Shown here: one piece after another, positions 15,242 to 49,611 of the stretch
Numbering within the stretch: position 1 is the first letter of the stretch
Layout: every line of letters starts with the position of its first letter
From: Trichormus variabilis 0441
GTDB taxonomy: Bacteria > Cyanobacteriota > Cyanobacteriia > Cyanobacteriales > Nostocaceae
Assembly (NCBI RefSeq): GCF_009856605.1
Contig: NZ_CP047242.1
Coordinates: 6,313,768 to 6,377,767, forward strand
Direction of reading: 5' to 3'
Length of the DNA: 64,000 nt
Translations under genes and position numbers: made by a program
The notes under the pieces: generated by a model
Told to the model about the DNA's origin: nothing
The model's input: the letters and a program-made list of their open reading frames with translations, nothing else
Databases searched by the model: none

Positions 15242-15312
15242 TAACTGAGCCGATTGTACCGTATATGCAGAGAAGAGAACAGGAAAATGTTGTCAGCAAT
15301 AACAAGTGAAAA
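15191..15312 (+). repeat. 61-bp degenerate tandem duplication across the vnfE-vnfN junction
   Basis: The unit at 15191-15251 (end of vnfE) is repeated at 15252-15312 (spacer and start of vnfN). GATTGCACCGTATACGCAGG in the first copy is GATTGTACCGTATATGCAGA in the second. Translated in register, DCTVYAGKKRGKC corresponds to DCTVYAEKRTGKC. The vnfN start codon lies inside the second copy. Confidence 0.8.
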
Positions 15313-16687
15313 CTCCCAGAAACTCAATGTCATACCCTCCCACACCGAGCCACTAACCTTTGATAATTGCGACCACAGCAAAGACCCAATTGTCGGCTGT
15401 GCGTTGGAAGGTATCGCTAACATGGTGGCGGGGATTAAAGATGTCAGTATTGTGATTCACTCTCCCCAAGGTTGCGCCTCTACGGTGGCGGCTGGCTATG
15501 ATAACCATGAGGTTGATTTCACTAAGCGCAAAGTCGGTTGTACGCGCCTGTTTGAGTCAGATATTGTCATGGGTGCGTCTGAGAAACTCAAAGGTTTGAT
15601 TAAAGAGGCGGATCAATCTTTCAAAGCTAAAGTGATGTTTGTCGTTGGTACTTGCGCCGCAGATATTATCGGTGAAGATATTCAAGGATTATGCAATAGT
15701 ATCCAACCAGAAATCAACGCCAAGCTTGTACCTCTGCTGGCTGGTGGTTTTCGCGGTAATGCTTACGATGGCTTGGAAATGGGCTTAGAAGCTTTACTTC
15801 CTTTCATCCAAAAAAGACAGAAGCGGCGCGGCGGTAAAAAACCCAGAATTGTGAATATTATTGCACCCCAAGCAAATGTCAATCCTACTTGGTGGGCTGA
15901 TTTGCAATGGGTAACGCAGATGTTAAAATCTTTAAGGATTAAAGTACAGACCGTAATTTCTCATGGTACTTCCTTTGAAGAACTGGAAAAAGCGGGTAAT
16001 GCAACTGCCAATATTCTTCTCAGCCATGATGTGGGGTATAAGTTTGCGCGGAAAATGCAAGAAACCCATAATATCCCCCTAATTCTGGATGATATACCTT
16101 TACCCATTGGTGTGCAGAATACTACACGCTGGTTGAAGGCTTTAGCAGCACATTTCAAAATAGACGAAAAAAGAGTAGAACCTCTCATCAACGAAGGTGA
16201 AAACAGGGTTGTAGAAACTCTTCGCAAACGCGCATTGATGATTATTCCCCGATATCGTAACTGTAGAATTGCTGTGTCTGCGGATGGGACAATGGGTATT
16301 GGGTTGGTGAGAATGCTGTTTGAAGAATTGGAAATGATTCCAGAAGTGTTGTTGTTCCGTTCAGGAATGCGCGAATCTCGTTCAATTCTAGAGCGAGAAT
16401 TACAAAGTATGGGGATTTCTCCCCGTGTAGTGTTTTCTGCTGATGGGTATCAGATTAAACAAGCCTTAGCTGATGTTGATACTGATGCTGTCATTGGCTC
16501 GGCTTGGGAAAAATACATGGCGGAAGAATTGGGAATTAAAATTGCTTTTGATGTATTTAGTCCGACAAACAGAGAGACTTACCTTGATAGACCATATTTT
16601 GGCTATGAAGGTATGATTAACATGATGGAAGTTGTTGCTAACGATTGGGAAAGAGCATTTCGTTCCAAACATATTCATTGGACTTAG
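15287..16687 (+). CDS. vnfN: FeV-cofactor scaffold protein VnfN
   Basis: VnfN is the second subunit of the VnfEN cofactor scaffold. The start is ATG 15287 (MLSAITSEN), which gives 466 residues; the frame is open to a TTG at 15254, but that part is the duplicated tail of vnfE. Conserved cysteines are C38 (DPIVGCALEG), C63 (SPQGCASTV) and C123 (VGTCAADIIGED), and the C-terminal YFGYEGMINMMEVVANDWE matches the NifN/VnfN and NifK end region. It is the last gene of the operon and is followed by a terminator-like HIP1 hairpin. Confidence 0.95.
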   Translation: MLSAITSENSQKLNVIPSHTEPLTFDNCDHSKDPIVGCALEGIANMVAGIKDVSIVIHSPQGCASTVAAGYDNHEVDFTKRKVGCTRLFESDIVMGASEKLKGLIKEADQSFKAKVMFVVGTCAADIIGEDIQGLCNSIQPEINAKLVPLLAGGFRGNAYDGLEMGLEALLPFIQKRQKRRGGKKPRIVNIIAPQANVNPTWWADLQWVTQMLKSLRIKVQTVISHGTSFEELEKAGNATANILLSHDVGYKFARKMQETHNIPLILDDIPLPIGVQNTTRWLKALAAHFKIDEKRVEPLINEGENRVVETLRKRALMIIPRYRNCRIAVSADGTMGIGLVRMLFEELEMIPEVLLFRSGMRESRSILERELQSMGISPRVVFSADGYQIKQALADVDTDAVIGSAWEKYMAEELGIKIAFDVFSPTNRETYLDRPYFGYEGMINMMEVVANDWERAFRSKHIHWT

Positions 16688-21927: not shown

Positions 21928-23082
21928 TCATACAAAATGAGCATCTCTTGGATGAAAAGCCAACTTAATCAAACTGTGATGGTAAACATTCTCTGACACA
22001 TCATTACGAGGAACTCTAGCCGTTAAAGTTTGTTCTCCCACCTTCACCTTGATGGTATAAGTTCCCACACCCCGCACAATCCGTTCTACCCTGCCTTGAA
22101 TAGAGACTGATCCTGGCTGTTGCGGAATTGCAGAACGTGTATCGTCAATATGGAACGCATCGCCGGATAGACAACAGGCTGTGATGGGTGCATTGATTTC
22201 GCCATAATAAGAAAACTCCATAGTGTTAGCTAACTTAATCAAATAACCACGGTGTTCTGGTTCTATTTGACAAGGGATGACGTTATCCATACCGACAAGT
22301 CTGGCGAGTTGTTGGTTAGCTGGACGACGGATAAGCATTTCTAACTTATCGTCTTGGATAATTCCACCGTCAAATAATGCGATCGCGCGATCGGCAAAAT
22401 TCAAGATATCTGTAAAGTTATGGCTGACTAATATCACCGCAGCCCCTCTAGCTTCCGCCCATTGGCGAATTTTCTCGATGATTTGCGGACGAATCGCCAC
22501 ATCTAAGTAGGCGGAAGGCTCATCTAATAACAGCAATTCTGGATCAGCTACCAACCCACAGGCAATACACACCCGCTTACCTTCGCCACCAGAAAGGGCG
22601 CGGGCTTGTCGATGTGCTAAATGTTCACAGCCGAATGTTTCCAGGGCAGTATATACCCTATGCTTAATTTGGTGCTTGGGTACACCGCGAAACTGTAAGA
22701 CTCTGGCAACATTATTAAATACAGTGTCATCCAACAGTAATGTTTCTTGAAACACCAATGCAGAACGACGACGCAAGGCTGTTTGATTCACTTGACGAGC
22801 ATCCTGTCCAAATAATTGCATTTCCCCACAATAGGATTGCAACATATTGATGGTTCTTAACAGGGTGCTTTTACCCGCACCATTAGGGCCAACTACAGCG
22901 ACTAATTCCCCTGGACGCACAGCGAAATTATCAATTGATAGAAGATTTTTGCGGCTTTTACTATCAACGTTCACCTGACGCATATTCAGGATATATTGAT
23001 TGATTTCCTCCTGATTTTCCTGTGATTTCATAGGAGGGGATTCTAAATTGATAAACGACCTTAACTTATGCAATTTACTCAT
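21928..23082 (-). CDS. vupC: Vanadate/tungstate-type ABC transporter ATPase (VupC-like)
   Basis: This is the ATP-hydrolysing subunit that drives oxyanion import. The 384-residue protein has Walker A GPNGAGKST, a Q-loop (ALVFQETLLL), signature LSGGEGKR, Walker B LLLLDEPS and the H-loop (VSHN). The C-terminal third (about 285-384) resembles the TOBE/molybdopterin-binding domain of ModC, which senses oxyanion and controls transport. It overlaps the permease stop by 4 bp (ATGA). The Vup name follows the gene set next to the vnf operon in A. variabilis; a tungstate (TupC) label would also fit sequence alone. Confidence 0.86.
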   Translation of the reverse strand: MSKLHKLRSFINLESPPMKSQENQEEINQYILNMRQVNVDSKSRKNLLSIDNFAVRPGELVAVVGPNGAGKSTLLRTINMLQSYCGEMQLFGQDARQVNQTALRRRSALVFQETLLLDDTVFNNVARVLQFRGVPKHQIKHRVYTALETFGCEHLAHRQARALSGGEGKRVCIACGLVADPELLLLDEPSAYLDVAIRPQIIEKIRQWAEARGAAVILVSHNFTDILNFADRAIALFDGGIIQDDKLEMLIRRPANQQLARLVGMDNVIPCQIEPEHRGYLIKLANTMEFSYYGEINAPITACCLSGDAFHIDDTRSAIPQQPGSVSIQGRVERIVRGVGTYTIKVKVGEQTLTARVPRNDVSENVYHHSLIKLAFHPRDAHFV

Positions 23083-23777
23083 AACATCTTCTTATCGTGC
23101 TGCAAGATAGTCAGCGACACCACAATGCTGTAGGTGATGAACAGGAGAATGTACGCGATCGCCATCGCCACCTCAAAGTTACCTTTTTCTACTTCTGTGA
23201 CAATAGCTGTAGTTAAAACTCGCGTCTGTCCTTTGATATTTCCCCCCACCATCATCGATGCGCCAACTTCCGAAATGACGCGACCAAAACCCGCAATAAT
23301 GGCAGCTATCAAGCCTAATCGTGCTTCCTTAATTAATAACCAATGAGCTTGCCAAGGTGTCGCCCCCATTGATAATAATTGCCAACGTAGTTTCGGATTA
23401 ATACTGAGGATGGCAGCAAAACTAAAACCCGCAACTATCGGGAAAGCAATAATAGTTTGAGCGATAATCATGGCTGTGGTTGTGTACATTAAATCCAAGT
23501 CACCCAAAGGGCCAGAACGCCACAAAAATAGACTCACCACCAAGCCAACCACCACAGGCGGTAATCCCATTCCGAAGTTAACGACGCTGTTCAATACAGG
23601 TTTCCCGATGAAATCTTCTAAAGCCAACCACAAACCCAAAGGTACACCCAACAACACACTAATAGTTGTCGCCACTCCAGAGACTAGCAATGTCATCGTC
23701 ATTACCTCGATAACATCGCGATCGCCACTAATTAATAACTCTAGAGCCTTATTCGCTCCATCAATGATTGTATCCAC
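23079..23777 (-). CDS. vupB: Vanadate/tungstate-type ABC transporter permease (VupB-like)
   Basis: This inner-membrane permease has several hydrophobic spans (VIEVMTMTLLVSGVATTISVLLG, GLPPVVVGLVVSLFLW, TTAMIIAQTIIAFPIVAGF, LIAAIIAGFGRVISEVGASMMVGG, IAYILLFITYSIVVSL) and the coupling segment EARLGLIAAI...GRVISEVG typical of TupB. I propose GTG 23777 (MDTIIDGANKALELL) as the start, because the frame upstream to 23831 begins with a TTG inside a palindromic repeat. No strong ribosome binding site is seen, so the start is uncertain. It lies between the ATPase and binding-protein genes. Confidence 0.84.
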   Translation of the reverse strand: MDTIIDGANKALELLISGDRDVIEVMTMTLLVSGVATTISVLLGVPLGLWLALEDFIGKPVLNSVVNFGMGLPPVVVGLVVSLFLWRSGPLGDLDLMYTTTAMIIAQTIIAFPIVAGFSFAAILSINPKLRWQLLSMGATPWQAHWLLIKEARLGLIAAIIAGFGRVISEVGASMMVGGNIKGQTRVLTTAIVTEVEKGNFEVAMAIAYILLFITYSIVVSLTILQHDKKML

Positions 23778-23814
23778 GAGTTTCTTATGAATCGAAAATA
23801 AACGTGATGTCCTC

Positions 23815-23912
23815 TCTAACCTAACCCCCAACCCCTTCCCTACAAGGGGAAGGGGAGTAGAAAATAAAGCCTCTCTCCTTGTAGGGGAGAGGTTTGGAGA
23901 GGGGTTTTAAGA
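23815..23912. repeat. Palindromic repeat between vupA and vupB
   Basis: CCTAACCCCCAACCCCTTCC and CTACAAGGGGAAGGGG on the left face AGCCTCTCTCC, TTGTAGGGGAGAGG and TTTGGAGAGGGG on the right. It shares long blocks with the MITE at 57236-57389 but lacks its ACGTGA ends. Inside an operon it could form a stable mRNA hairpin that lowers vupBC relative to vupA. Confidence 0.65.
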
Positions 23913-23921
23913 ATAAGTAAT

Positions 23922-24803
23922 CTAAAACCCATAATCCTTTTCACTCTTACCCCCATCAGCAAAAAACAATGGCTGTCCAAGTTCTTTCCTACCGTGAGCA
24001 GCAATTATTCTCTGTCCTTCAGGAGATAAAACAAAATCAATAAAAGCCTTAGCTCCTGCACTATTAACTCTGGGGAATTTCTGCGGATTTACTTGCATTA
24101 CATGGTACAGATTTAATAATTTCCTGTCTCCTTCTACCAACACCTGCAAAGAATCAAGATTCTTTTTCTGAAATAGATAGGTGGCTCTATCTGCTAATGT
24201 ATATCCTAGTTTTTGATTAGCAACCTGTAAAGTTCTCGCCATTCCTGAACCTGTTTGTTGATACCAACTACCAGCAGGGTTAATATTAGCTTGTTGCCAT
24301 AAGTCTTTTTCTAATTTATTCGTCCCTGAATCATCACCTCTTGATACAAATAATGCTTGATTTTTGGCAATTGCATTAAACGCTTGGACAACATTTTTGC
24401 TACCTCGAATCTTGGCTTTGTCAGGATTACCCGGCCCTACAATTACAAAGTCATTGTGCATAACTAAACGGCGGTTAGTCACTGCACCACCTTGTAAAAC
24501 TTTGCGTTCGGCTTTGGGTGAATTGACAAATAGCATGTCAACTTCGCCTTTTTCTGCTAAGGCTAATGCTTGTCCAGTTCCTACGGCAACTTTTTTGAGT
24601 CGATAGCCTGTTGTTTTCTCAAATGCTGGAACTAAATCATCAAGTAATCCGCTATCTTCGATGCTAGTTGTCATGGCGACAATGACATTGCGATTTGTAG
24701 GAGATTGAGCGTTGGCTTGTGGTGTTAAAAAATTACCAATGTCAGCAGTTACAACTGCTAAACAAGAAGCTAAAGCTGCAATTACGAATCTTCTTTGAAC
24801 CAT
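23922..24803 (-). CDS. vupA: Vanadate/tungstate-type substrate-binding protein (VupA-like)
   Basis: The periplasmic receptor captures the oxyanion for VupBC. The 293-residue protein has a signal peptide (MVQRRFVIAALASCLAVVTA, cleavage likely near ANA or AQS) and TupA motifs: VIVAMTTSIEDSGLLDDLVPAFEK, VGTGQALALAEKGEVDMLFV, and SRGDDSGTNKLE, whose TTS and SRGDDSGT segments bind the anion in tungstate receptors. It is the first gene of the minus-strand vup set. Discrimination of vanadate from tungstate or molybdate cannot be read from sequence; the neighbouring vnf genes argue for vanadate. Confidence 0.87.
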   Translation of the reverse strand: MVQRRFVIAALASCLAVVTADIGNFLTPQANAQSPTNRNVIVAMTTSIEDSGLLDDLVPAFEKTTGYRLKKVAVGTGQALALAEKGEVDMLFVNSPKAERKVLQGGAVTNRRLVMHNDFVIVGPGNPDKAKIRGSKNVVQAFNAIAKNQALFVSRGDDSGTNKLEKDLWQQANINPAGSWYQQTGSGMARTLQVANQKLGYTLADRATYLFQKKNLDSLQVLVEGDRKLLNLYHVMQVNPQKFPRVNSAGAKAFIDFVLSPEGQRIIAAHGRKELGQPLFFADGGKSEKDYGF

Positions 24804-32985: not shown

Positions 32986-33693
32986 TTAACCTTCATCACC
33001 ATCAACAATTTCTTGCTTGATGAAGCGGATTTTTGTAGCTAATTCCTTGCGTGTAGAAGCTTTGAGTAAATAGCGCAAGAAAAACCATGTCACCGAAACC
33101 ATGCCAATGAACTCAAAACTTAAATTGACCACAGGAATATCATTAACAGTGTATAGTAAAACCATGAGTAGTTTTACCGCAAATAGCATTACCAAAATTA
33201 AGCTAATGCCAATAATGATGCGCTTATATTCTACAGAGAAATTACCCAGATATTGAGAGGATTTAGCTAAAAATCCCCAAATATTCTTCCCAACTTCCAT
33301 CCATTGAATAACCTGCTCATTATTTGGTAATACCTGAGCTTCAACCTGAGCAACTTCCGATTCTAATATCACTTCATCGGAAGTTAAATCAATGCGCCTT
33401 AATTGTTCTAGTCTGCTTTCCATAATGTTCCTATTGTCGGTAGTGGCAACGTTGTTAATTTCTAAATTCAGGTATTGTCTATCTGGTGTAGAAAGATATG
33501 ACATATCAGTGACATAAGCTTTGGCATCTACACAATTACTGTTATCACTAGATATTGCCAAAATAGTCTGTTCATCAATGTGTTCTTTGGATTGACTGAC
33601 TCCGGTAAATCCGGGACATTCTACACAATAGATGTATACGTGCTTCTCCCTTTCTGGAATTGTTTCGTCGCACCTTAATAGTTTTAGAGGCAT
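32986..33693 (-). CDS. Chimeric protein: VnfD N-terminal pieces fused to a CAAD membrane domain
   Basis: The first 21 residues ([19 protein letters not shown]...) copy the VnfD N terminus with one change, and residues 22-38 (YCVECPGFTGVSQSKEH) copy VnfD 164-180; VnfD 22-163 is missing in frame. The copy includes the vnfDG ribosome binding site (GCCAAGGAGAATAAAGGA). After a unique linker (about 39-90) comes a membrane protein with two hydrophobic spans and an ending FFLRYLLKASTRKELATKIR that fits the CAAD domain, found in cyanobacterial thylakoid proteins and appended to aminoacyl-tRNA synthetases. M91 (MESRLEQLRR) may be the original CAAD start. The 235-codon frame is intact. Whether it is translated is unknown. 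Confidence 0.8.
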   Translation of the reverse strand: MPLKLLRCDETIPEREKHVYIYCVECPGFTGVSQSKEHIDEQTILAISSDNSNCVDAKAYVTDMSYLSTPDRQYLNLEINNVATTDNRNIMESRLEQLRRIDLTSDEVILESEVAQVEAQVLPNNEQVIQWMEVGKNIWGFLAKSSQYLGNFSVEYKRIIIGISLILVMLFAVKLLMVLLYTVNDIPVVNLSFEFIGMVSVTWFFLRYLLKASTRKELATKIRFIKQEIVDGDEG

Positions 33694-37233: not shown

Positions 37234-37783
37234 TTAACGGGTTAGGAGGAGGTTGGCGATCGCAAATAGAGTTTGCATTGTTCCTTGGTAGCCAACTTTT
37301 GTTAACATGGCGTTACCTACGCGATGACCTACGGTCGGTCGAAGACCATCGCAAATAGGAATCCCTTGGCGATAAAGGGGGATTTGTAAGCGTTGAGAGA
37401 TGGTGTCTGCATGAGAATTGGCAATTAATAAGTCAGCACCTGTGGCTAATTGCTCAAAGTCTTCTAAATCACCGATGTTCACACAAGGAATTGCTAGTTT
37501 TTCTAAGACGGGGGAACTTTGCAGCGTTCCGCATACTCTCACCTAACGCGATGGTGAAAACAGAATCGGCGATCGCCCTCAGTTGCGTTACGGTTGTTCC
37601 ACTGCTTGTAATATGGCTAGATGTGTGAGCCACATGACTATCTAGTAAAGCAGAAAGATCAGGAATGGCGATGCCTTCGGCGGGCTACGCCTACGCTTCC
37701 AACCCAAAAGCAGCGATAATCTCTTTAACCTCTTCTATATCCCCTGGTGTAAACGTAGAACTCGCCAACAAAGTAACTTGTTG
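37234..37783 (-). pseudogene. nifN pseudogene: 5' truncated, repeat-interrupted, frameshifted
   Basis: Read on the minus strand from 37783, QQVTLLASSTFTPGDIEEVK and IIAAFGLEA match the central part of NifN, then a stop lies in an inserted short repeat (37674-37700, GCGTAGGCGTAGCCCGCCG type). After it the reading resumes as IAIPDLSALLDSHVAHTSSH and TIALGESMRNAA, then shifts frame to LEKLAIPCVNIGDLEDFEQL, SHADTISQRLQIPLYRQGIP and GYQGTMQTLFAIANLL, the NifN C terminus. The N-terminal half is missing. So at least three lesions: truncation, insertion and frameshift. Its relation to the adjacent NifE-NifX pair suggests a former nifENX set. Confidence 0.85.
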
Positions 37784-39332: not shown

Positions 39333-40466
39333 CTAAACCGTTGCTACAACTTCCCCAATTTTTGTAATGTCATAGCCACCGAGGACTTCTAGTTGCGAGT
39401 GAACCATGCGATGTCCCAAGGTACTCAACAATTGTTGTATAGGTGCTTCTTCTAAATATTCCTTCAGAATCACTAAATCATATCTTGATTGATGCAGAGG
39501 TACAAATCCTAAGCCAAAGGTAGCAGCGACGGATGCTGTACTAATACCTGCATCCACAAACCCTAGTGCGACGGCTTGGGCAACATCTTGATGGCTAGTG
39601 GCAATCTGCTCAAATCCTTTGACTGCTGCAAATGGTATGTGTTCTTGTTGCAGTTTTTGCTCTAAAAGCATTCGACTACCAGCACCAACTTCACGATTGA
39701 CGATGGTTGCTTGTGCTTCTACTACATCGTTTAGTGTTTTAAAACCCTTGGGATTACCCGATGGGACTATCAGCCCTTCTTCCCATAAACCTAGAGTTAC
39801 TAAAACAGCTTCCCTTCCTGCTAAGATTTCACGGGCAAACGGCACGTTATGTTCGTCAGTTTTGGGATCATATAGGTGCATCCCAGCAATGTGCGCTTCA
39901 CCTCTGCATAGACTTTGCAGGGCATCTATGCTGTTGGCAAAGGTAAAATGTACTCGCAGTTGTGGATGCCAGCGTTCGGTAGCTCTTGCCCAGAGTGCAA
40001 TTACAGGCGAGCAACCTGCAATCACTACTGTGTTATGCAGTGCGGCTAAGTTATCATCTAACAGCCTCACTTGCACTTTACCGCTTCCTGTTTGGCTCAC
40101 TCCTTCCCCATCTGCCGGAATCATATCTTGGCGAAAGGCATCTTTACCCAATAGGGGATAAGCGACCCATTGTCCGCCAACCCTTGCTAAACTCAGGCGT
40201 ATGGACTGATCTGCGGGTATGGGTTTTGTGAGGACTGCTTCAATTGTAGGTAAGTCTTGGTCTAGCCAGAATAGATCCTCAACTTGACAACCAAGTGCTT
40301 TAGCTATGCGTAGTGCGATCGCCACTGAGGGGGCATATTGTCCCGATTCCACACCACTAATGGTCTGACGAGTTACACTAGCAATGTTAGCCAAATCTTG
40401 CTGGCTCATCCCTAAGCGCGTTCTGATTGCTTTCAAGTTATTAAGGAGGCCACTATCCTGCTTCAT
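39333..40466 (-). CDS. vnfR: VnfR-type repressor: XRE HTH plus oxyanion-binding-like domain (copy 2)
   Basis: The 377-residue protein is a close paralogue of the one at 26178-27308 over its full length (shared LKAIRTRLGMSQQDLANIA against IKSIRTRLGMSQQDLANIA; VRLLDD, NTVVIAGC, HPQLRVH, IAGMHLYDP, ILKEYLEEAP). HTH at about 10-66, binding domain about 130-372 with NREVGAGSRMLL. It lies upstream of vnfH on the same strand with 287 bp between them. Two copies fit the described dual repressors VnfR1/VnfR2; which is which is not shown by the sequence. The ligand is presumably molybdate. Confidence 0.87.
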   Translation of the reverse strand: MKQDSGLLNNLKAIRTRLGMSQQDLANIASVTRQTISGVESGQYAPSVAIALRIAKALGCQVEDLFWLDQDLPTIEAVLTKPIPADQSIRLSLARVGGQWVAYPLLGKDAFRQDMIPADGEGVSQTGSGKVQVRLLDDNLAALHNTVVIAGCSPVIALWARATERWHPQLRVHFTFANSIDALQSLCRGEAHIAGMHLYDPKTDEHNVPFAREILAGREAVLVTLGLWEEGLIVPSGNPKGFKTLNDVVEAQATIVNREVGAGSRMLLEQKLQQEHIPFAAVKGFEQIATSHQDVAQAVALGFVDAGISTASVAATFGLGFVPLHQSRYDLVILKEYLEEAPIQQLLSTLGHRMVHSQLEVLGGYDITKIGEVVATV

Positions 40467-41105: not shown

Positions 41106-41882
41106 TTAATTAAATTGGCGGCGGCTTCTCCGCAATTTTCTAGTCATTAAACCTGATGCAATCAGCAGCGATAAACCTGATATTGTGGGTTCTGGGACTT
41201 GAGTAATTACTAATGAGAGGTTATCAGCATAAGAGTCGTTGACTCGACCTCCTGTATGATTGGCATTTAGAACTACATTAATTTGACGTGTTCCGGCAGG
41301 AACAAAACCATTAGTTCCTCGCAAAAATAACCCTGTAACGTTATTTCTTTCGGCTGCATTTGGCGCAGAAATATTAGCAATTCCTAGAGATTGGTTTGTC
41401 TGCCCAAGGAAAGTAATATTGAGTGTTGCAATATCGTCATCATCATCATATCCACCTAACCAACCACTCAAATCAAAAACTGCTTTACCTGCATCAATTA
41501 CTGAAGCAATACTATTGACATCAATAGATTGGGAAGCACTAGATGAGGCTCTACTAGCACCACCAAAAAAGAGATTTTTACCTCTGTCATCTGGGCCAGG
41601 AACATTAACATCTGGTAGGTTAACTCTCACGACATTACCAAGGCCATTAGTAAATTCAAAGCCTGTTGCTCCATATTCCAACACACTAAAATTACCAGTT
41701 GTAGTCCAACCTGGAATCAAGGGAATGTCAGCACCGACTGCATTACCTATGGAGTCTCCTAATCCTTGCTCTGCATCACCATTGATAATTAAATTTTGAC
41801 CTAGTGTGGCAGCATGAGTAGGTTGAGCCAGTAAAAAACTAGATGCTAATCCGGCTATTAAAGAAAGACTAATTTTGTTCAT
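41106..41882 (-). CDS. PEP-CTERM sorted extracellular protein
   Basis: The 258-residue protein has a signal peptide (MNKISLSLIAGLASSFLLAQ, cleavage near THA) and a C-terminal sorting tag: VPEPTISGLSLLIASGL followed by basic TRKLRRSRR. PEP-CTERM tags are processed by an exosortase at the cell envelope. The middle has an acidic YDDDDDIATLNI stretch and beta-rich repeats. It begins 81 bp after the ModA/PEP-CTERM gene on the same strand, so it is likely cotranscribed. The start at 41882 is preferred to GTG 41918 for signal peptide shape. Function unknown; probably surface or biofilm related. Confidence 0.88.
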   Translation of the reverse strand: MNKISLSLIAGLASSFLLAQPTHAATLGQNLIINGDAEQGLGDSIGNAVGADIPLIPGWTTTGNFSVLEYGATGFEFTNGLGNVVRVNLPDVNVPGPDDRGKNLFFGGASRASSSASQSIDVNSIASVIDAGKAVFDLSGWLGGYDDDDDIATLNITFLGQTNQSLGIANISAPNAAERNNVTGLFLRGTNGFVPAGTRQINVVLNANHTGGRVNDSYADNLSLVITQVPEPTISGLSLLIASGLMTRKLRRSRRQFN

Positions 41883-41963
41883 GTTTTGTGAGATTTTTTT
41901 CAAGATAATTTGATTCACAGTCGCGTCTTTGTGAAATTGATAGTTTCTCTATACAAGCGATAG

Positions 41964-42908
41964 TTAAACTTTGGTAGTTGCTGTTGATTTTCTGCTATGA
42001 GATAACTTTTTCTGAACAGCAAAAGCCACACTTAAGGCTAATAAAGTTCCATACGCACCTTGATGTTCAGGAATAGAAGTTGAAGGAGTGCCAAATCCAT
42101 ATTTTGCTAGGATGGCTTGCCCTTTTGATGAGAGGATATATGCAGCTAATTTCTCTCCGTCGGGATCTGCATTTTTAATTACAGTCAAACCATAATCAGC
42201 CTTTGTGGCTAAATAATTCGGTAACTCTACTATTTGTAAATCTTTACCTGCTTCTAGTTCTTGAGCAGTTTTACCACTGGTGTAATAAGCTAAAAAGATA
42301 TCTGCAAGGGGATTGGTTTTGAGGAAATAGACGAGATTATTTTCTCCGGTGGGAACTGAGGGTGCAGAGGGATTCCCACCTACTAATTGCAAGGCTTTAG
42401 TTTTGAGAGTTTGCGAACTACCTGGTTTAATGGCATCAGCTTTATCAAATATCTGCCAGGCGTAGTCTCCAGAAGGGTCAGCTAATGGTGTTGATGTGCC
42501 TACCTTGATGATTGGATCGAGTAAGAATTCTAAGATATTATCTGATGTGACACCAGTTAACCCTGGTCTGACAATAGCAACCATACGATTGCTAGTAAAA
42601 TTCTGTCCAGAATTACTCAAACCTTTTTGAAATAGTTGTTGGGGATTTCCTAAATCAGCACTGGCAAAGACATCTGCGGTTTTTACATTGCTAGATAATT
42701 CATCCTCTATTTTGACTCTTGTTAAACCTGAAGGGCCAAAATAAGTCTCTACAGTGATGCCATAATCTGCTGTAAAAGCTTGTGCTACTTCCGTCAGGCT
42801 ATTCCGCAAACTACCAGCACCATATAAAGTGACGGCAGATACTGGGGTTGGTAATGTAACATTGACAGCAAAGGCCATCAATGAAAAGGCACAAAACTGC
42901 TTTTTCAT
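41964..42908 (-). CDS. ModA-family oxyanion-binding protein with PEP-CTERM-like C terminus
   Basis: The 314-residue protein has a signal peptide (MKKQFCAFSLMAFAVNVTLP), then a ModA-type core: VTLYGAGSLRNSLTEVAQAF, GPSGLTRVKIEDE, ADVFASADLGNPQQL, FTSNRMVAIVRPG, and SSKGQAILAKYGFG. Unusually, the core is followed by IPEHQGAYGTLLALSVAFAV and KKLSHSRKS, a PEP-CTERM-like anchor (Pro-Glu, hydrophobic helix, basic end). No ModB/ModC permease or ATPase is adjacent. Its core is related to the cytosolic protein at 8604. A palindrome (43042-43060) sits in its promoter region, shared with the divergent porin gene. It may hold oxyanion or another ligand at the surface. Confidence 0.85.
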   Translation of the reverse strand: MKKQFCAFSLMAFAVNVTLPTPVSAVTLYGAGSLRNSLTEVAQAFTADYGITVETYFGPSGLTRVKIEDELSSNVKTADVFASADLGNPQQLFQKGLSNSGQNFTSNRMVAIVRPGLTGVTSDNILEFLLDPIIKVGTSTPLADPSGDYAWQIFDKADAIKPGSSQTLKTKALQLVGGNPSAPSVPTGENNLVYFLKTNPLADIFLAYYTSGKTAQELEAGKDLQIVELPNYLATKADYGLTVIKNADPDGEKLAAYILSSKGQAILAKYGFGTPSTSIPEHQGAYGTLLALSVAFAVQKKLSHSRKSTATTKV

Positions 42909-43041
42909 GGTTGGTATATAATCACGCAATATTCATAACTACTGCTTGATTATCTGGTGAATTACACTCAAGTAGTAATTAATTAGAGATTGAAAGCCTC
43001 ATCTGGAAAGGAACACTGGTCATTTAACAGACAACAATACA

Positions 43042-43060
43042 TTACCAACGTAATTGGTAA
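43042..43060. promoter_or_regulatory. Palindrome TTACCAA-N5-TTGGTAA, site 1
   Basis: Perfect 7-bp arms with a 5-base spacer (CGTAA), in the divergent promoter region between the ModA/PEP-CTERM gene and the porin. The same motif occurs at 47581-47599 and 49593-49611. Candidate operator for an unknown dimeric regulator. Confidence 0.65.
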
Positions 43061-43222
43061 AAATCAATCCATTAAGTCAGGGAATAGCAACAATTGAGCG
43101 ATCGCCTCAAAAATATCTCTCTATAAAAATTAGTAGCAAAAAGTACTTTTTACAGTTAATAATGTATATTAACTTATTTTATACCAACTAGATTGGTAGC
43201 AAGTTGTTCAGGTGTGAGGCAA

Positions 43223-44968
43223 ATGTTTAACATCGTATGTAAGTCTTTGTTTATAGCTCCCGTACTGCTGGGAGTGAATGTGTTAATGGCTCAAGTTGTA
43301 TCAGCATCTCCGGTAGCAGGAGACGTTGAAACACAACAAGAAGCGGATGATAACTCATCAATCACTCAGGTGACATCTGTTTCGCAACTATCTGATGTGC
43401 AACCGACAGACTGGGCTTTTCAAGCTTTACAATCTTTAGTTGAGCGTTATGGTTGTATTGCTGGATATCCCGACAGCAGCTTTCGGGGTAATCGCGCCAT
43501 AACTCGCTATGAGTTTGCTGCTGGTTTGAATGCTTGCTTGAATCGGATTAACGAACTGATTGGGACAAGTACGGCGGATTTAGTCACAAAAGAAGATTTA
43601 GCCACACTACAAAGACTGCAAGAAGAGTTTGCCGAAGGACTAGCAGAACTGCGGGGAAGGGTAGATGGACTAGAAGGGCGTACAGCCATCTTAGAAAGTC
43701 AACAATTTTCTACCACTACCAAGTTGAATGCAGAGGTAATTCTTACTGTTGGTAGTGTGTTTGGTGGAGATAGAGCGTTAAACTCTGACCAATGGCGAAC
43801 CATAAATGCACAGCCTGCTGGTACTGCACGGGAGAATGCTAAAAATAGTGCCTATGGAGCCGCAGGAAGGAATCTGCAAGATAATGCTATTTTAAGCGAT
43901 CGCGTCCGCTTGAATTTAGTCTCTAGTTTCACTGGCAAAGACCGCTTGTTTGCTCGGCTAGAAGCAAACAACACTACCGCATTTAATGCTCCAGTGACAG
44001 GCACTAATATGAGTCGTCTGGGGTGGGATGCAACTGGTAACTTAGATAACAGTGTTCAATTAGGCAAGCTATTTTACCGCTTTCCTGTAGGTGATAAACT
44101 CAACATCATTATTGATGCCATTGGTGGAGAATTTTACGATAACTTCAATACGATCAATCCCCTGTTAGCATCAGCTCCTACCGGTGCAGTATCCCGTTTT
44201 GGTCGCTTCTCGCCTATTTACCGAGCGAGTAACACTGGTTCTGCTAGCAATACCGGTTCAGGAATTAGCGCCATATTTCAATTGAGTAATGCTGTGACTT
44301 TCTCGGCGGGATATCTAGCCAGACGAGGCAGTGAGCCGACACCCGGTAGAGGTTTATTTGATGGTAGTTATGGAGCCTTGGCGCAGTTAGAATTTCAACC
44401 AAACACAAACTTAACCCTGGGTTTGAGCTATGCTCACTCCTACTTTAGTGGTGAAGCCGGGGATGTTACCGTTTCCGGCGCTTATGGTAGTGCTTTCGCT
44501 AATACCCCGTTTGGTTCTGCGGTGTCTACTTCCGCCAATTATTATGGTTTACAAACGAGTTACCGTTTCAATCCCCAGTTTATAGTCTCTGGATGGGTCG
44601 GATATACCCAAGCTATAGCCGAAGCCAGTTCCGGTACTACAGTCAACCGTGGTGATCAAGCAGATATTTGGAACTGGGCAGTAACTTTAGCTTTCCCCGA
44701 TTTGGGGAAAAAGGGGAATTTGGGTGGTTTAATTTTTGGACAACCGCCAAGAGTTACCAGTAATGACTTTGGCCCCGCTAATTTGACTGCTACCAGCGCT
44801 CGGCGTGAAGATACAGATACATCTTTCCATGTGGAGGCTTTGTATCGCTACCAACTGAACAATAATATCTCGATTACACCAGGGTTAATTGTCATATTTA
44901 ACCCAGAAAATAACAGCAACAACGATACTATCTATACCGGTGTTGTTCGCACTACGTTTAGATTTTAG
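43223..44968 (+). CDS. SLH-domain outer-membrane porin (cyanobacterial iron-uptake porin/OprB type)
   Basis: The 581-residue protein has a signal peptide (MFNIVCKSLFIAPVLLGVNV), an S-layer homology domain (about 65-120: VQPTDWAFQALQSLVERYG, FRGNRAITRYEFAAGL), a coiled coil (about 125-170: LQRLQEEFAEGLAELRGRVD) and a beta-barrel ending in aromatic TGVVRTTFRF, as outer-membrane proteins do. The SLH part binds pyruvylated peptidoglycan-linked polymer. Such porins pass small ions and nutrients. ATG 43223 is preferred to TTG 43193. It is divergent from the ModA/PEP-CTERM gene and shares a regulatory region with the palindrome, which fits a role in oxyanion or metal entry. Confidence 0.9.
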   Translation: MFNIVCKSLFIAPVLLGVNVLMAQVVSASPVAGDVETQQEADDNSSITQVTSVSQLSDVQPTDWAFQALQSLVERYGCIAGYPDSSFRGNRAITRYEFAAGLNACLNRINELIGTSTADLVTKEDLATLQRLQEEFAEGLAELRGRVDGLEGRTAILESQQFSTTTKLNAEVILTVGSVFGGDRALNSDQWRTINAQPAGTARENAKNSAYGAAGRNLQDNAILSDRVRLNLVSSFTGKDRLFARLEANNTTAFNAPVTGTNMSRLGWDATGNLDNSVQLGKLFYRFPVGDKLNIIIDAIGGEFYDNFNTINPLLASAPTGAVSRFGRFSPIYRASNTGSASNTGSGISAIFQLSNAVTFSAGYLARRGSEPTPGRGLFDGSYGALAQLEFQPNTNLTLGLSYAHSYFSGEAGDVTVSGAYGSAFANTPFGSAVSTSANYYGLQTSYRFNPQFIVSGWVGYTQAIAEASSGTTVNRGDQADIWNWAVTLAFPDLGKKGNLGGLIFGQPPRVTSNDFGPANLTATSARREDTDTSFHVEALYRYQLNNNISITPGLIVIFNPENNSNNDTIYTGVVRTTFRF

Positions 44969-45482
44969 GAACTGGCTAGCAACTTAGTGTTGAGTATTGA
45001 TACCAATTCTCTATGAAGTTGCGCCAGATAAATGATGTAGAGACGTTTCATGCAACGTCTCTACAGTAAAGAATAAAGTGCATCTATGGCTACGTCAGGC
45101 AAGCTACATCAAGAAACGGTATGAGCGAATAAAAATTACTCAACACTTTTTATTTATTTGAATAGCAATCCAGAATTGGTCGTAAATTCAAGGGTTCAAC
45201 ACCCCTCTCTTACAAGGTTCTGTGACGCTCTCTACGAGACGCTAAAAGCGAACGCAGACTCGCTACCGCTACGCTAACGCCGGAAACTGACGCACCCTGC
45301 GGGATCTTGCTACAGACTTTGCGCTAAGTCTACACGTAGTGTCAGTTAAGTTGGGATTTAAATCACCAACTCCAACCGTCTTTAATTTTGAATTTTGTAG
45401 CTTTAGCTTCCCGTAGGGTATTTTGAATTTTGAATTGTTAATAATGATTGTATTTTGAGTTTTGAATTATTAGCGGTAGAAT
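44969..45482. other. Gene-free region with short repeats
   Basis: 514 bp without a gene. It holds the palindrome GTAGAGACGTTTCATGCAAC continuing GTCTCTAC (45038-45065), and a cluster of short repeats (45220-45345: CTCTACGAGACGC, CTCGCTACCGCTACGC, CGCACCCTGCGGGATC). TTTTGAATTTTGAATT units lie just before the subtilase gene. Confidence 0.55.
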
Positions 45483-47366
45483 ATGCAAGTTAAATTTACT
45501 CCAATAAATAACAATATTATTCATGGAGTTACTAGCAATGGTAACTCTTTTCCAGAACATAATGATGCTTATAGCTCTGAACTCAGGATTGACGATATAT
45601 TAAGCTCAAACTTTCATAGTAGTTTTTCAACTCAGCAAGATAATACATTATTGTCGGCAACTGTCTCAAATACTAATACTCATCTCACTGCTCAAACAAT
45701 TGATGTTACATCTAGTCAACCAGACTTAATCATCCAAAATGCTGTAGTTCCTAGTACAGCATCAATTGGAACTACTATCCAAGTAAACTATGTAGTTAAG
45801 AACCAAGGCTCGGAGAATACTTTCTCTAGCTATACTATGTTTTTCTTATCGAGAGATAGAAATGTGAGTGATGATGATTATTACTTAGGTTCAGACTATG
45901 TTGACGGTATTGCAGCAGGCGCTTACAGTTCAGAATCAAGCACACTCAGAATTGATAATGGTATTGTCGCTGGTAGCTATTATTTATTGTGCCAAGCTGA
46001 TGGCAATGGAGATTTTATTGAAAGTAATGAAACCAACAACATTTTAGCGACAGCCATCAATATTAATCTGATTCAGACAGATTTAGTTGTTCAGAATCCT
46101 GTAGCACCTAGTTCAGTAACTGTTGGGTATAGCTTTAGAATTAGTTATCGAGTTAAAAACCAGAGTGTGGGTAATGCTTTTCCTAGCTCTACGATGTTTT
46201 ATATATCTAAAGATAAAACTATCAGCAATGATGATCTATATTTAGGTTCCCAGGATGTTGGTAGTATTCCAGCAGGTGCTTATAGTTCACAAACAACTTC
46301 ACTGAGGATTGTGAATAATATCACCGCAGGTAAATATTATCTGCTGTACAAAGCTGATGGTAACAACAATTTGATTGAAACCAATGAAGGCAATAACATT
46401 GTTGCTAAAGCTATCAACATCAAGAATAGTTTTCGCTCTACCAATGGTTATGGCTTAATTAATGCCGCCGCCGCAGTAGCTCAAGCCTTAGGTCAGACAA
46501 CCTTTGGTGATGTTGTTAATTTAGGTGGTAACAATTGGGGTGCAGACCTCATTAACGCACCAGAAGTCTGGGCAAAAGGATATACAGGTCAAGGAATTAC
46601 TGTCGCTGTTGTAGATGGTGGGGTTGACCGCAACCATACCGATTTGAGCAGTAATATCTGGAAAAATCTTAAAGAAATTGCTGGTAACGGTAAGGATGAT
46701 GATGGCAATGGCTATATTGATGATGTTTACGGCTGGAACTTTGTTGACAACAACAACAATACCTTAGACAAAAATGGACATGGGACTCATGTAGCTGGGA
46801 CTATTGCCGGGGTAAGAAATAGCTTTGGTGTTACAGGTATTGCCTATAATGCCAAGATTATGCCAGTGAAGGTTTTGGCTGATAATGGTTCAGGTGCTGA
46901 TAATGCTATCGCTCAAGGTATTCGTTATGCGGCAAACAATGGAGCCAATGTGATTAACTTGAGTTTAGGTAAAGAGCAACCTAGTATTAATATCCAATCG
47001 GCTATTCAATATGCTAGCAGCAAAGGCGCGATCGTGGTTATGGCAGCAGGAAACGGTGGTCAGCTAACACCATACTACCCTGCTAGATATGCCACAGACT
47101 GGGGGCTAGCGGTAGGCGCAGTTGATAAGTCTGGAATTATGGCTAGCTTCTCTAACCTCGCCGGAAATGAGCTATTGAGCTATGTCACAGCCCCTGGTGT
47201 TGGTATTTATTCGACACTTCCTGGTAACAAATATGCTTCTTGGAATGGAACATCTATGTCCACTCCTTATGTTGCTGGGGTAGTCGCTTTGATGCTGAGT
47301 GCTAATAAAAATTTAACTGATTCCCTCGTGCGTCAAATCCTTACATCTACCGCAGCCAATAGATAA
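45483..47366 (+). CDS. Subtilisin-like serine protease with two CARDB domains
   Basis: The 627-residue protein has about 70 unstructured N-terminal residues, two CARDB-type beta domains (about 78-195 and 198-312; each starts PDLIIQN or TDLVVQN and ends NETNNI/NEGNNI), then an S8 protease domain. The catalytic triad is D378 (VAVVDGGVD), H433 (GHGTHVAG) and S591 (NGTSMSTPYVAG). A calcium-binding-like DDDGNGYIDDVYG is present. No classical signal peptide exists, which suggests another secretion route or an unannotated start. The reverse order, CARDB before protease, suits a cell-surface or secreted enzyme. Target unknown. Confidence 0.9.
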   Translation: MQVKFTPINNNIIHGVTSNGNSFPEHNDAYSSELRIDDILSSNFHSSFSTQQDNTLLSATVSNTNTHLTAQTIDVTSSQPDLIIQNAVVPSTASIGTTIQVNYVVKNQGSENTFSSYTMFFLSRDRNVSDDDYYLGSDYVDGIAAGAYSSESSTLRIDNGIVAGSYYLLCQADGNGDFIESNETNNILATAININLIQTDLVVQNPVAPSSVTVGYSFRISYRVKNQSVGNAFPSSTMFYISKDKTISNDDLYLGSQDVGSIPAGAYSSQTTSLRIVNNITAGKYYLLYKADGNNNLIETNEGNNIVAKAINIKNSFRSTNGYGLINAAAAVAQALGQTTFGDVVNLGGNNWGADLINAPEVWAKGYTGQGITVAVVDGGVDRNHTDLSSNIWKNLKEIAGNGKDDDGNGYIDDVYGWNFVDNNNNTLDKNGHGTHVAGTIAGVRNSFGVTGIAYNAKIMPVKVLADNGSGADNAIAQGIRYAANNGANVINLSLGKEQPSINIQSAIQYASSKGAIVVMAAGNGGQLTPYYPARYATDWGLAVGAVDKSGIMASFSNLAGNELLSYVTAPGVGIYSTLPGNKYASWNGTSMSTPYVAGVVALMLSANKNLTDSLVRQILTSTAANR

Positions 47367-47733
47367 AAAGGAGTCAGAAAACTGGAGTCAGAATTCAGAA
47401 TACTCCACCCATAAAGGGATAGAGTTTACATAAGGAAAAAGTCTCAGATTTGTTTCCCCCACGTTTGCGTAGCGGACGCACCAGAGGGGCGAGGTTTTAA
47501 CCAATATTCATCCGCCAGTCGCACAGAATTAATACTGAATTCTGGCTCCTGACTCCTGAATTCTGTTTGATAAACTTTTTTTACCAAAATTTTTGGTAAA
47601 GTCTAGCTTTAGTAGCTTTGCCATTTTTAGTATAAAAAATTACTTTTAAAATAAAGTTGATTACATATCTTTTGAGGGGCGAATATATTGCGCCCCTACC
47701 TGTTCACCTTATTCAAATGCAATCACATAAGAA
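47367..47733. other. Convergent intergenic region with a palindrome
   Basis: 367 bp between the ends of the subtilase and PEP-CTERM genes. It contains GAATTCTGGCTCCTGACTCC-type repeats (47375-47400, 47530-47570), a short repeat CGTTTGCGTAGCGGACGCAC at about 47463-47482, and the second TTACCAA-N5-TTGGTAA palindrome at 47581-47599. No gene or clear terminator. Confidence 0.55.
47581..47599. promoter_or_regulatory. Palindrome TTACCAA-N5-TTGGTAA, site 2
   Basis: Perfect 7-bp arms, spacer AATTT; arms extend outward as TTTACCAAAA/TTTTGGTAAA. It lies between two convergent gene ends, so its target is unclear (unknown short transcript, or the region's chromatin or terminator function). Confidence 0.5.
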
Positions 47734-48477
47734 TCAAACAAGCTCAAATTGGGACTTACCACTACTAGCCAAACGGTTTTTTCTATGACGCATTCCCATC
47801 ATAGTTACAACGGCTAGTCCAGCCATGATTGATGGTTCAGGTACAGAAGTAGATTGTTGACCGTCATCATTAATCCGAACGACGCTGATATTATCGATGT
47901 TGTACCAAGCTTTTTGTTGGAAACTGGCAAACTTTAACTCTGTGATTTTTGAGGTGGCTATAAAATCTAGTGTGTATTGCGTAAAATCTTGGAATGGAAT
48001 ATCACTTCTTTCCTCTACCAAGTTACCGCCTATATATGTCCGAAAAGTGCTTAAGTTCTCCTCATCTGAGTTAGCTAAGTAGTAGGTCAATCGATATCTT
48101 TGATTCTTCTTGGTGTTCAAGTTTTGGGATATGTAAGTAAAGTCGGCTGATGCTGCCATACGTACACTTCTAGAATAATCAGATTCCCTATCGACGGTAT
48201 AATTCTCTAGATAAGTGGTGTAGAAAGTTTCATTTTGCGTACTATTGAACCATCCTCTAATAAAAGGATTAGCACGAGTAGGGTCGTTAGGATTCAATAG
48301 TTCATTGGGGTCACAGACGTTTTGTGGACAGTATGTAAAGTCGCCATTCTGCACAATATTTCCTAACTTGGCAGCTTGTGCCTGAGAAGTATAACCACCT
48401 ATGCCTACAGCAGTACTGACAAAAGCACTGGTAATAGTTAGTAACAAATGTTTGAAAGTTTTGTTGGTCGATTTCAT
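47734..48477 (-). CDS. PEP-CTERM sorted extracellular protein
   Basis: The 247-residue protein starts at ATG 48477 (MKSTNKTFKHLLLTITSAF) after CGGAG with a signal peptide ending near AQA, and ends with VPEPSIMAGLAVVTMMGMRH plus RKNR, a PEP-CTERM tag. The core (GNIVQNGDFTYCPQNVC, RYRLTYYLANSDEEN, WYNIDNISVV) resembles carbohydrate-binding-module-like jelly rolls used in surface proteins. It begins 88 bp after the third ModA-like gene and on the same strand, so a ModA-like plus PEP-CTERM gene order is seen twice in this island. Confidence 0.88.
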   Translation of the reverse strand: MKSTNKTFKHLLLTITSAFVSTAVGIGGYTSQAQAAKLGNIVQNGDFTYCPQNVCDPNELLNPNDPTRANPFIRGWFNSTQNETFYTTYLENYTVDRESDYSRSVRMAASADFTYISQNLNTKKNQRYRLTYYLANSDEENLSTFRTYIGGNLVEERSDIPFQDFTQYTLDFIATSKITELKFASFQQKAWYNIDNISVVRINDDGQQSTSVPEPSIMAGLAVVTMMGMRHRKNRLASSGKSQFELV

Positions 48478-48565
48478 GAAAAATTTCTCCGAATCTGGCT
48501 GAAAGATCATAGATATTTCTGGAAGCGAATTATCGATAGGATCGGTGGTATCCATTACCTATGAT

Positions 48566-49522
48566 TTAAGGTGCTAGAAATCCACGATTGGTTAAGGCAT
48601 TTCTGGCTGCTGTATTGGTAGCAACAAAGTTAGCAAAGGAATTAGCAGCTGTAACATTTGTAGTTCTGTTAAGTACAGCTTCTGGATAGACTATGGGAGT
48701 AGTTAGGCAAGTTGAGGGAGCAGCTAGGCCTACTTGTGTTACTAGAGTAGAAACCTGTTTATCTGTCGCATACACTATACCTGCATCAATGACATTTCCA
48801 CCGAGAGTTTTAGTCTCAACTGCACTCAAAACGTTACGGACGTTAGTGGCAAAGATAAGCTTATTAGGTAGTGGGTTATTCAGCAGCGTATTGTAGGTAC
48901 CTCCACCGCAACCACTAGCGGTACTAGTCAGGACTTGTCTGGCATATTCTCCAGCTGGAACAGTTGAGGGGCTACCTATAGCAATACCGCGAATACCAGC
49001 TCTCGTTGGAGGACTATTAACAAGGGTGCTGAAACTCGAAATAGCGTTACCTGTGGGAGCAGGTGCAGTAGGGGTATTTGGTTTGATTAAGACGAGCCTA
49101 TTTCTAGCAATGTTCTGTGGCCAACCAGCAGCTAGTTTTTCAGCCGTCTGCAAACTGGTCATCTGAGAGGTAGCAGCCGAAATAAACACATCTGGAATCC
49201 CAGCTGTTTCATTTGGTGCATAGTTGATGTTTTGTAGCAAAATCCCTGAAGAATCTAGGCTATTTGTAAAGTTAATCTTTGGTGTGGAGGTGCTGTTATT
49301 GTAAGCATTCTCCACGTCTGTTAGTGCTTCCAATAAACTAACCGCAGCGTAAACTCTCAGACTGGCTGTAGCACTTGGTGATGTGACGGTTGTCGTCACC
49401 TGTGGTGTTGGGGGGGGTGTCTGTGCTGTAACTGGTGCAGACATCAACAATGGGAAGGCGATCGCCACTATTAAGCTGGTAATCGCCCCAGTCATCCAAG
49501 CAATAAATTTTTTCTTGCTCAT
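48566..49522 (-). CDS. Exported ModA-like substrate-binding protein
   Basis: The 318-residue protein has a signal peptide (SLIVAIAFPLLMSAPVTAQ) and a ModA-type fold: SLRVYAAVSLLEALTDVENAY, GIPDVFISAATSQM, NIARNRLVLIKPN, IAIGSPSTVPAGEYARQVL, and DAGIVYATDKQV. It is more diverged from ModA than the two other orphans, with Cys pair loops (SGCGGG, STCLTT) of its own. No permease or ATPase genes are nearby. Two tandem palindromes lie 51-89 bp upstream of its start. It is followed by a PEP-CTERM gene. The ligand may be an oxyanion or something else. Confidence 0.8.
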   Translation of the reverse strand: MSKKKFIAWMTGAITSLIVAIAFPLLMSAPVTAQTPPPTPQVTTTVTSPSATASLRVYAAVSLLEALTDVENAYNNSTSTPKINFTNSLDSSGILLQNINYAPNETAGIPDVFISAATSQMTSLQTAEKLAAGWPQNIARNRLVLIKPNTPTAPAPTGNAISSFSTLVNSPPTRAGIRGIAIGSPSTVPAGEYARQVLTSTASGCGGGTYNTLLNNPLPNKLIFATNVRNVLSAVETKTLGGNVIDAGIVYATDKQVSTLVTQVGLAAPSTCLTTPIVYPEAVLNRTTNVTAANSFANFVATNTAARNALTNRGFLAP

Positions 49523-49572: not shown

Positions 49573-49611
49573 ATACCAAAAAAGTTGGAATATTACCAAT
49601 ATTTTTGGTAA
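49573..49611. promoter_or_regulatory. Tandem palindromes TACCAA-N5-TTGG and TTACCAA-N5-TTGGTAA, site 3
   Basis: A perfect copy at 49593-49611 (spacer TATTT) is joined to a weaker copy at 49573-49591 (ATACCAA-N5-TTGGAAT), repeated on a 20-bp period. They lie upstream of the ModA-like start at 49522 and about 355 bp before the P450. Confidence 0.7.

Follow-up and report, generated by a model that had tools for sequence, protein, structure and literature searches.

What do genes for ModA-like binding proteins do where each is followed by a gene for an exported PEP-CTERM protein and no ATP-binding cassette (ABC) transporter is encoded beside them? The question is raised by a stretch of 64,000 nucleotides from Trichormus variabilis 0441 (contig NZ_CP047242.1, positions 6,313,768 to 6,377,767; G000:C1:6313768-6377767 in our genome set), here called the window, which is a vanadium-nitrogenase island and which holds two such pairs between positions 41106 and 49522. 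A first-pass annotation had reported two same-strand ModA-like/PEP-CTERM pairs with a porin carrying an SLH domain nearby and had raised the possibility that they capture an oxyanion at the cell surface or signal, rather than feed an importer. The pairs were found with exactly the coordinates, strands, and order claimed, and the porin was confirmed. The genes of the segment are as follows.

41106-41918 (-): PEP1, exported PEP-CTERM-tailed protein with a predicted jelly roll like that of carbohydrate-binding modules (CBMs)
41964-42929 (-): ModA1, PRK03537-type ModA-like protein; likely ATG at 42908; signal peptide by eye; its own PE-x tail (IPEH)
43193-44968 (+): SLH/OprB porin (NF033921 por_somb, 710.8 bits; PF00395, PF04966), divergent from ModA1; likely ATG at 43223
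45483-47366 (+): S8 subtilase with CARDB domains
47734-48555 (-): PEP2, DUF642/choice-of-anchor-C-like PEP-CTERM protein with a predicted CBM16-like jelly roll
48566-49522 (-): ModA2, ModA-like protein with canonical pocket residues; Sec-type signal by eye; no sorting tail

Conservation and makeup of the pairs

The same pairing was sought, as the first-pass annotation had suggested, in a sample of 145 Nostocaceae genomes. PEP2 was present in 20 of the 145 genomes and 12 of 56 genera. At all 21 ModA2-PEP2 loci of those 20 genomes, where genes of at least 80 amino acids were called by our own open reading frame (ORF) picker, a PEP2-family gene was the next called gene on the same strand, with a gap of 11 to 372 bp, and PEP2 adjoined every one of the 20 best places in the ModA2 search. 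The PEP2-paired ModA2 genes formed a single group in the tree (97/80), and PEP2-family genes were two or three in number at ten loci. We conclude that the pairing of ModA2 with PEP2 is beyond chance, because PEP2 came next on the same strand at every locus. The first pair was looser: ModA1 (E ≤ 1e-60) was found in 24 genomes and PEP1 in 19, both were found in 13, and the two genes were adjacent in 8 of those 13. In G019, G045, and G076, which lack such a ModA1, PEP1 was located no more than about 3 kb from the canonical modA.

Both PEP families have relatives outside the pairs. PEP1 had 713 homologues, some from other phyla, and is thus a branch of a wider family. A class-wide PEP2 profile search, with at most nine candidates scored per genome, gave matches in 3 of 291 genomes, all Nostocaceae. 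The weakest match (G006, 66.5 bits) was a DUF642-like PEP-CTERM protein; the surrounding 17 kb contained neither a ModA nor a palindrome of the kind described below (up to one mismatch), so PEP2 relatives without ModA exist.

The binding proteins resemble molybdate-binding ModA. ModA1 matched NF002920 at 671.1 bits (cutoff, 470) and PF13531 at 132.6 bits and missed the cutoff of TIGR01256 (53.2 versus 62.5), which ModA2 passed (76.3). Pocket residues are given here in what we take to be the numbering of Escherichia coli ModA. Equivalents of S12, S39, A125, V152, and Y170 were retained in all 21 ModA2 proteins and likewise in the canonical ModAs. The window ModA1 retained both Ser and the Tyr and had no clear V152 equivalent; an Asp-Pro-Ser-Gly loop, which aligned with Asp-Pro-Cys-Gly of the Archaeoglobus molybdate/tungstate binder, replaced Val-Pro-Ala-Gly.

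The sorting tails, in which a C-terminal PEP-type motif is followed by a transmembrane helix and a basic end, were scored by our own rule. ModA1 ended in IPEH followed by a hydrophobic helix and basic residues, which bore out the earlier observation that one of the ModA-like proteins has a PEP-CTERM-like tail. The rule found the tail in 24 of 26 ModA1-family ORFs. Among 505 other ORFs it was found in 11, including several that resembled true PEP-CTERM proteins. The third tail residue varied across the family (VPEP, VPEH, VPES, and others), and of the 2,417 ModA1 homologues, the 120 that were listed were used: the tail was carried by 39 of those ranked 1 to 40, by 34 of those ranked 41 to 80, and by 9 of those ranked 81 to 120. 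A PEP-CTERM tail was also seen on two ModAs outside the ModA1 family (L128:4262-5185, PF07589 at 11.8; L138:11293-12294, 23.2 versus 20.7), suggesting repeated acquisition of the tail by ModA.

The partner proteins carried tails as well. All 18 PEP1-family members in the loci, the window PEP1 among them, satisfied the rule, with PEP1 itself scoring slightly below the TIGR02595 cutoff (14.6 versus 16). PEP2 passed TIGR02595 (17.3) and did not reach Pfam PF07589 (14.2 versus 20.7); 24 of 33 PEP2-family ORFs had the tail by rule and 9 were tailless. One exosortase gene was found in the genome (PF09721, 201.7 versus 25.7). The predicted PEP1 structure (mean pLDDT, 85.9) matched sugar-recognizing F-box domains (best E value, 1.9e-9) and CBM families 16 and 4. 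The predicted PEP2 structure was poor overall (mean pLDDT, 62.7), with residues 141 to 230 at 80 to 94; its first match was an arabinanase, and it also matched CBM families 16 and 61. The likeness of the predicted folds suggests that PEP1 and PEP2 may bind glycans. A further family of small exported PE-x-tailed proteins followed PEP1 or PEP2 in some relatives (L103:8166-8780, L104:7876-8484, and L099:10380-12087), and neither of the two members that were scanned matched Pfam.

Whether the pairs stand apart from ABC transporters, as first claimed, depended on the pair. Among ORFs of at least 100 amino acids between 36000 and 55000, no ABC permease or ATPase was recognized, partly by models and partly by eye, which agrees with the claim that none is nearby. 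The claim does not extend to the rest of the window, where vupABC lies 16.3 kb from the segment (toward the other end none was seen by eye), or to the genome, which encodes a fused ModB-ModC. The fused family (cluster c15; TIGR02141 at 244.9 versus 182.6, with an ABC ATPase domain) shared a locus with ModA1-PEP1 in three of eight cases, namely, L103 (same genus), L108, and L109. In L108, the order was ModA1, PEP1, ModA, and ModBC on one strand, with an opposite-strand ORF of 81 amino acids in between. In L110 and L112, fused modBC also adjoined PEP1 or was close to it, with ModA1 missing, and in all, ModA1 or PEP1 was linked to modA, fused modBC, or the regulator gene described below in L103, L108, L109, L110, L111, and L112. 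By contrast, modBC was found in none of 20 fetched ModA2-PEP2 flanks, which reached at most about 9 kb in either direction and in some cases stopped at a contig end. Within those flanks, the claim stands for ModA2-PEP2; for the first pair it is not supported. In T. variabilis 0441 itself, the fused modBC (C1:1606690-1608489; matched in two pieces, 74 to 75% identical to the query) is 2.7 Mb from the canonical modA (C1:4288677), and the accessible text of PMC4284476 likewise places modA and fused modBC apart in Anabaena variabilis.

A palindrome common to the pairs, the porin, and modA

Alignment of nine ModA1 upstream regions revealed the palindrome TACCAA-N5-TTGGTA. Its copies in the segment are as follows.

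43043-43059: perfect, in the ModA1/porin intergenic region
43182-43198: perfect, about 25 bp before the likely porin ATG at 43223
47582-47598: perfect, between the convergent 3′ ends of the S8 gene and PEP2
49574-49590: one mismatch, upstream of ModA2
49594-49610: perfect, 72 bp upstream of the ModA2 ATG

The 7.1-Mb genome contained six perfect copies, compared with one for a control pattern, and four of the six lay inside this 6.6-kb interval. The fifth (C1:4288470) lay between the canonical modA and the adjoining regulator gene. The palindrome is therefore common to the upstream regions of ModA1, the SLH porin, ModA2, and the canonical modA. The copy at 47582-47598 may belong to a terminator hairpin or be a relic.

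Upstream sites (up to one mismatch, within 350 bp) were counted in 56 fetched loci and the window, for ORFs with at least 200 bases upstream. A site preceded 19 of 21 ModA2 genes, 14 of 26 ModA1-family genes, and 6 of 9 other ModA genes, as well as 5 of 6 porin genes (ModA1 and the porin share one intergenic region in the window and in L103), 7 of 8 genes of an HSDR_N-domain cluster, and 4 of 8 vnfR genes. The S8 gene was the convergent neighbor of PEP2 in 9 of the 21 ModA2-PEP2 loci and had an upstream site in 6 of those 9; the window copy had none. Sites were infrequent before modBC (1/5) and PEP1 (3/18) and absent before PEP2 (0/33), nifDKEN (0/16), and nifH (0/7); PEP2 genes, and PEP1 genes of adjacent pairs, come second in their units. 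With three control patterns, the mean count was 0.0 for the ModA and porin classes and 1.0 for 594 other genes. This last class takes in divergent neighbors whose intergenic region also serves a counted gene, as well as the ORFs of three loci (L131, L134, and L135) with no ModA or PEP family gene. In a further set, the 11 modA loci that the ModA2 search returned from genomes without PEP2, modA had a site within 400 bp upstream in 8, perfect in 6 (the set omits L043, whose genome has PEP2).

Across the 145 genomes, 639 perfect sites were found, compared with 136 control sites, and 134 genomes had at least one. Scans for promoters and terminators gave no excess over shuffled sequences. In the open-access literature on PEP-CTERM proteins and molybdate and on modBC or ModE-type regulation in cyanobacteria, judged by titles and the starts of abstracts, no description of the palindrome or of these pairs was found. 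We conclude that both pairs very probably belong to one regulon with modA.

The gene beside modA is a candidate for the regulator.

L133:8019-8465 (-): ribbon-helix-helix (RHH)-Mop-type gene of the same genome, 148 residues

A perfect palindrome starts 6 bp before its start codon. The protein has a C-terminal Mop domain (65.1 versus 55), and TOBE passed in all five family members scanned. The N-terminal part looks RHH-like: RHH_1 passed the Pfam cutoff in one of the five (L137, 24.5 versus 20.5) and was undetected in the T. variabilis 0441 copy. RHH proteins bind short inverted repeats, so a protein of this type suits the palindrome. Its own locus aside, the gene adjoined modA at 4 of the 8 modA loci with a palindrome and at none of the 3 without one, too small a set for a conclusion. 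We infer that the RHH-Mop-type protein is the likely reader of the palindrome. It resembles ModE in having a Mop/TOBE molybdate-binding domain and in lying next to modA and differs from it in its RHH-like N terminus and single Mop domain; a true ModE was rejected, with the ModE model PRK10676 at 20.5 versus 369. The accessible text of a review names the gene next to modA a modE homologue (PMC4284476).

Two observations concern other genes near these sites. The palindrome precedes VnfR-type genes in four relatives (L099, L106, L108, and L137; three copies are perfect and one has one mismatch) and not in the window, a hint that molybdate control and vanadium-nitrogenase control may be connected. 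ModA1-family genes that have no PEP1 beside them often adjoin, or lie near, a gene for a small exported protein whose domain resembles molybdopterin oxidoreductases (L114, L115, L118, L119, L120, L121, L128, L132, and L138); PF00174 scored 25.1 versus 24 in L128 and gave no match in L132, and a two-mismatch palindrome was found upstream in 5 of 10 cases.

A candidate molybdate-capture layer and its alternatives

We lean toward the reading that the segment is part of a molybdate-starvation regulon in which exported capture proteins and a porin are added to ModABC. The reading draws on features of sequence: the pairs and their conservation, the pocket residues, the tails, the single exosortase gene, the single fused modBC, the linkage to modA-modBC in some relatives, and the palindrome. 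The modA1-pep1 and modA2-pep2 operons and the divergent SLH porin would stand under the same operator-like site as the canonical modA. Under molybdate scarcity, the RHH/Mop-type repressor encoded beside modA would release these sites, and ModA1, ModA2, the CBM-like partners, and the porin would then be made along with ModA. Exosortase processing would bring ModA1 and the PEP proteins to the outer envelope or past it, where they would probably be attached to the polysaccharide coat. There they might concentrate molybdate or a similar oxyanion, which would pass through the co-induced porin to the ordinary ModABC, with modBC encoded elsewhere. The accessible text of PMC3627308, citing earlier work, states that strains with inactive modBC transported molybdate supplied at 10 micromolar and failed to do so at 1 micromolar; a capture system would thus still need to feed ModBC or another importer. 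The surface-capture role proposed in the first-pass annotation fits the conserved pairs, pocket residues, export signals, and porin with the same sites, and what falls away, for the first pair, is independence from ABC transporters. A more specific version is plausible, and we hold it more tentatively: that Nostocaceae scavenge molybdate outside the cell with exosortase-sorted ModAs and coat-held CBM-like partners, under an RHH/Mop regulator that reads TACCAA-N5-TTGGTA and of which we found no published account.

Several results weigh against this reading. ModA2 has no sorting tail (0/21 by rule), so its surface location is doubtful. The window ModA1 matches no PEP-CTERM model and ends in PEH rather than PEP, and the models match three to four of 31 relatives. 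PEP1 is missing from 11 of the 24 ModA1 genomes, lies on a different contig from ModA1 in 5 of the 13 genomes that have both, and adjoins ModA1 on only 5 of 12 named contigs that carry it. The model that recognizes the porin is named for iron uptake. As for the palindrome, the perfect copy at 47582-47598 is not upstream of any gene, the sixth perfect copy of the genome (C1:3821756) lies inside an unrelated ORF, and three of the 11 modA loci (G080, G103, and G120) have no site. The modBC gene of T. variabilis 0441 has only a two-mismatch site upstream (L143), and 22 of the 594 other genes have a site, compared with the control mean of 1.0. One-mismatch sites number 81 in the genome against 25 for the control and were rejected as evidence when taken alone. 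Finally, both pairs are overrepresented in genomes with VnfD, a bias that would not be expected if molybdate alone were involved.

Part of this evidence fits a plainer arrangement, in which ModA1 and ModA2 are extra periplasmic binding proteins that feed ModBC and the PEP neighbors are co-induced envelope or sheath proteins with no capture role. ModA2 has a plain signal and no tail, ModA1 shares a locus with modBC in L103, L108, and L109, and the palindrome is common to modA and the pairs. We nevertheless consider this arrangement unlikely, as it leaves unexplained both the invariant ModA2-PEP2 pairing (21/21) and the ModA1 tail (24/26). According to the accessible text of PMC4284476, mutants of the known A. 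variabilis transport system, with the gene unspecified there, do not fix N2 without high molybdate or vanadate; should a modA mutant have been included, the extra ModAs would not make up for the loss of ModA. It is improbable that the pairs hold, buffer, or sense an oxyanion instead of feeding import, whether as a surface store or to keep molybdate from neighbors. Such a role would accord with the lack of modBC in the 20 ModA2-PEP2 flanks and with the binding-protein-like domain of the VnfR-type regulators of the island (PF12727, 39333-40466), whereas no conserved signaling gene was found beside the pairs among the named ORF clusters (most clusters are unnamed), and a mutant of the paralogue ava4025 had no phenotype in the accessible account (PMC4284476).

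A shade less probable still is that the ligand is vanadate or tungstate and that the pairs serve VupABC and the vanadium nitrogenase of the island. The pairs do sit within a vnf island, and the ModA1 Asp-Pro-x-Gly loop is that of archaeal molybdate/tungstate binders. VnfD (E ≤ 1e-200) was found in 11 of the 145 genomes and was overrepresented, with phylogeny uncorrected, among both the ModA2-PEP2 genomes (5/20 versus 6/125 others; one-sided Fisher P = 0.008) and the ModA1 genomes (6/24 versus 5/121 others; P = 0.003). However, most of these genomes lack VnfD (15 of the 20 with ModA2-PEP2 and 18 of the 24 with ModA1), and restriction of the pairs to vanadium-nitrogenase genomes was rejected on that count. 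Moreover, in the 350 bp upstream of vupABC and of ava4025-vnfDG in the window, no palindrome was found even with two mismatches allowed, and the linkage in relatives is to modA and modBC. That the genes are neighbors by chance we regard as having next to no probability. The adjacency of ModA1 and PEP1 is not universal (8 of 24 ModA1 genomes), but the retention of ModA2-PEP2 across 12 genera together with the common palindrome contradicts a chance origin for that pair.

Molybdenum can limit nitrogen fixation. If the capture reading is true, the picture of molybdate uptake by inner-membrane ModABC omits an outer layer made up of surface binding proteins and a co-induced porin, and part of the unassigned PEP-CTERM cargo of cyanobacteria becomes testable for a role in nutrition. 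The palindrome also offers a way to list candidate coregulated genes in 134 of the 145 Nostocaceae genomes.

Known systems resemble the proposed one in part. The ModABC of A. variabilis, in the accessible text of PMC4284476 and PMC3627308, shares with it a ModA-type protein with the pocket residues, the same palindrome at modA, and, in some relatives, modBC in the locus; the segment differs in having two extra ModAs, one of them (ModA1) tailed, with exported CBM-like partners and no adjoining modBC. The closest precedent is ZepA for zinc, by analogy: ZepA of Anabaena sp. PCC 7120 is described as regulated by metal starvation, with a signal peptide and PEP-CTERM, extracellular, and mediating zinc uptake (PMC10957091, accessible text). 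Compared by description, that system has one protein, a cation, and Zur, whereas the segment has a binding-protein/CBM-like pair, presumably an oxyanion, and another operator-like site. The claim that no system of this plan had been described thus gives way, in outline, to ZepA. CrtB of Nostoc punctiforme, from work on exosortase and PEP-CTERM, is alike in PEP-CTERM tails and a single exosortase gene, and a term search of the main text found no molybdenum-related cargo named there (PMC12188702). The same kind of search found no molybdenum-related term in the main text of two exoproteome papers (PMC4390845 and PMC11424642).

The surrounding vanadium-nitrogenase island

The other features named above lie elsewhere in the window; vup, vnfR2, and ava4025 naming follows the accessible text of PMC4284476.

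8604-9401 (+): ava4025-type ModA paralogue, first gene of the vnfDG operon
10101-16687: vnfDG, vnfK, and vnfEN-like genes
21928-24803 (-): vupC, vupB, and vupA, a vanadate/tungstate-type (TupABC type) ABC transporter, by model matches
39333-40466 (-): vnfR2-type regulator with HTH and PBP_like domains (PF12727)

The island also contains a nifV-type gene; genes for NifH, NifE, and NifX; and two VnfR-type regulators, at 26178 and 39333. This layout agrees with the plan published for A. variabilis ATCC 29413, in which, in the accessible text, vupABC lies between vnfDGKEN and vnfH, vnfR1 is ava4042, and vnfR2 is ava4055 (PMC4284476). A conserved vnf-linked cluster with many uncharacterized genes was published in 2019 (PMC6645180), and to judge from its accessible part, the genes of the segment may be among them. 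A literature search found no published mention of ava4056 to ava4060 or of ava4063.

The ava4025 counterpart belongs to the ModA1 family and the same island and differs from ModA1 in having no signal peptide, tail, or upstream palindrome and in the change of two pocket loops, and the published mutant is described as phenotype free (PMC4284476, accessible text). Its nearest relative, in G091 (L137), retains both loops. Two remnants were also seen: an ORF with a vnfD-like start, by eye, at 32986-33693 (-) and a nitrogenase-type C-terminal fragment at 37234-37542 (-; PF00148, 37.4 bits).

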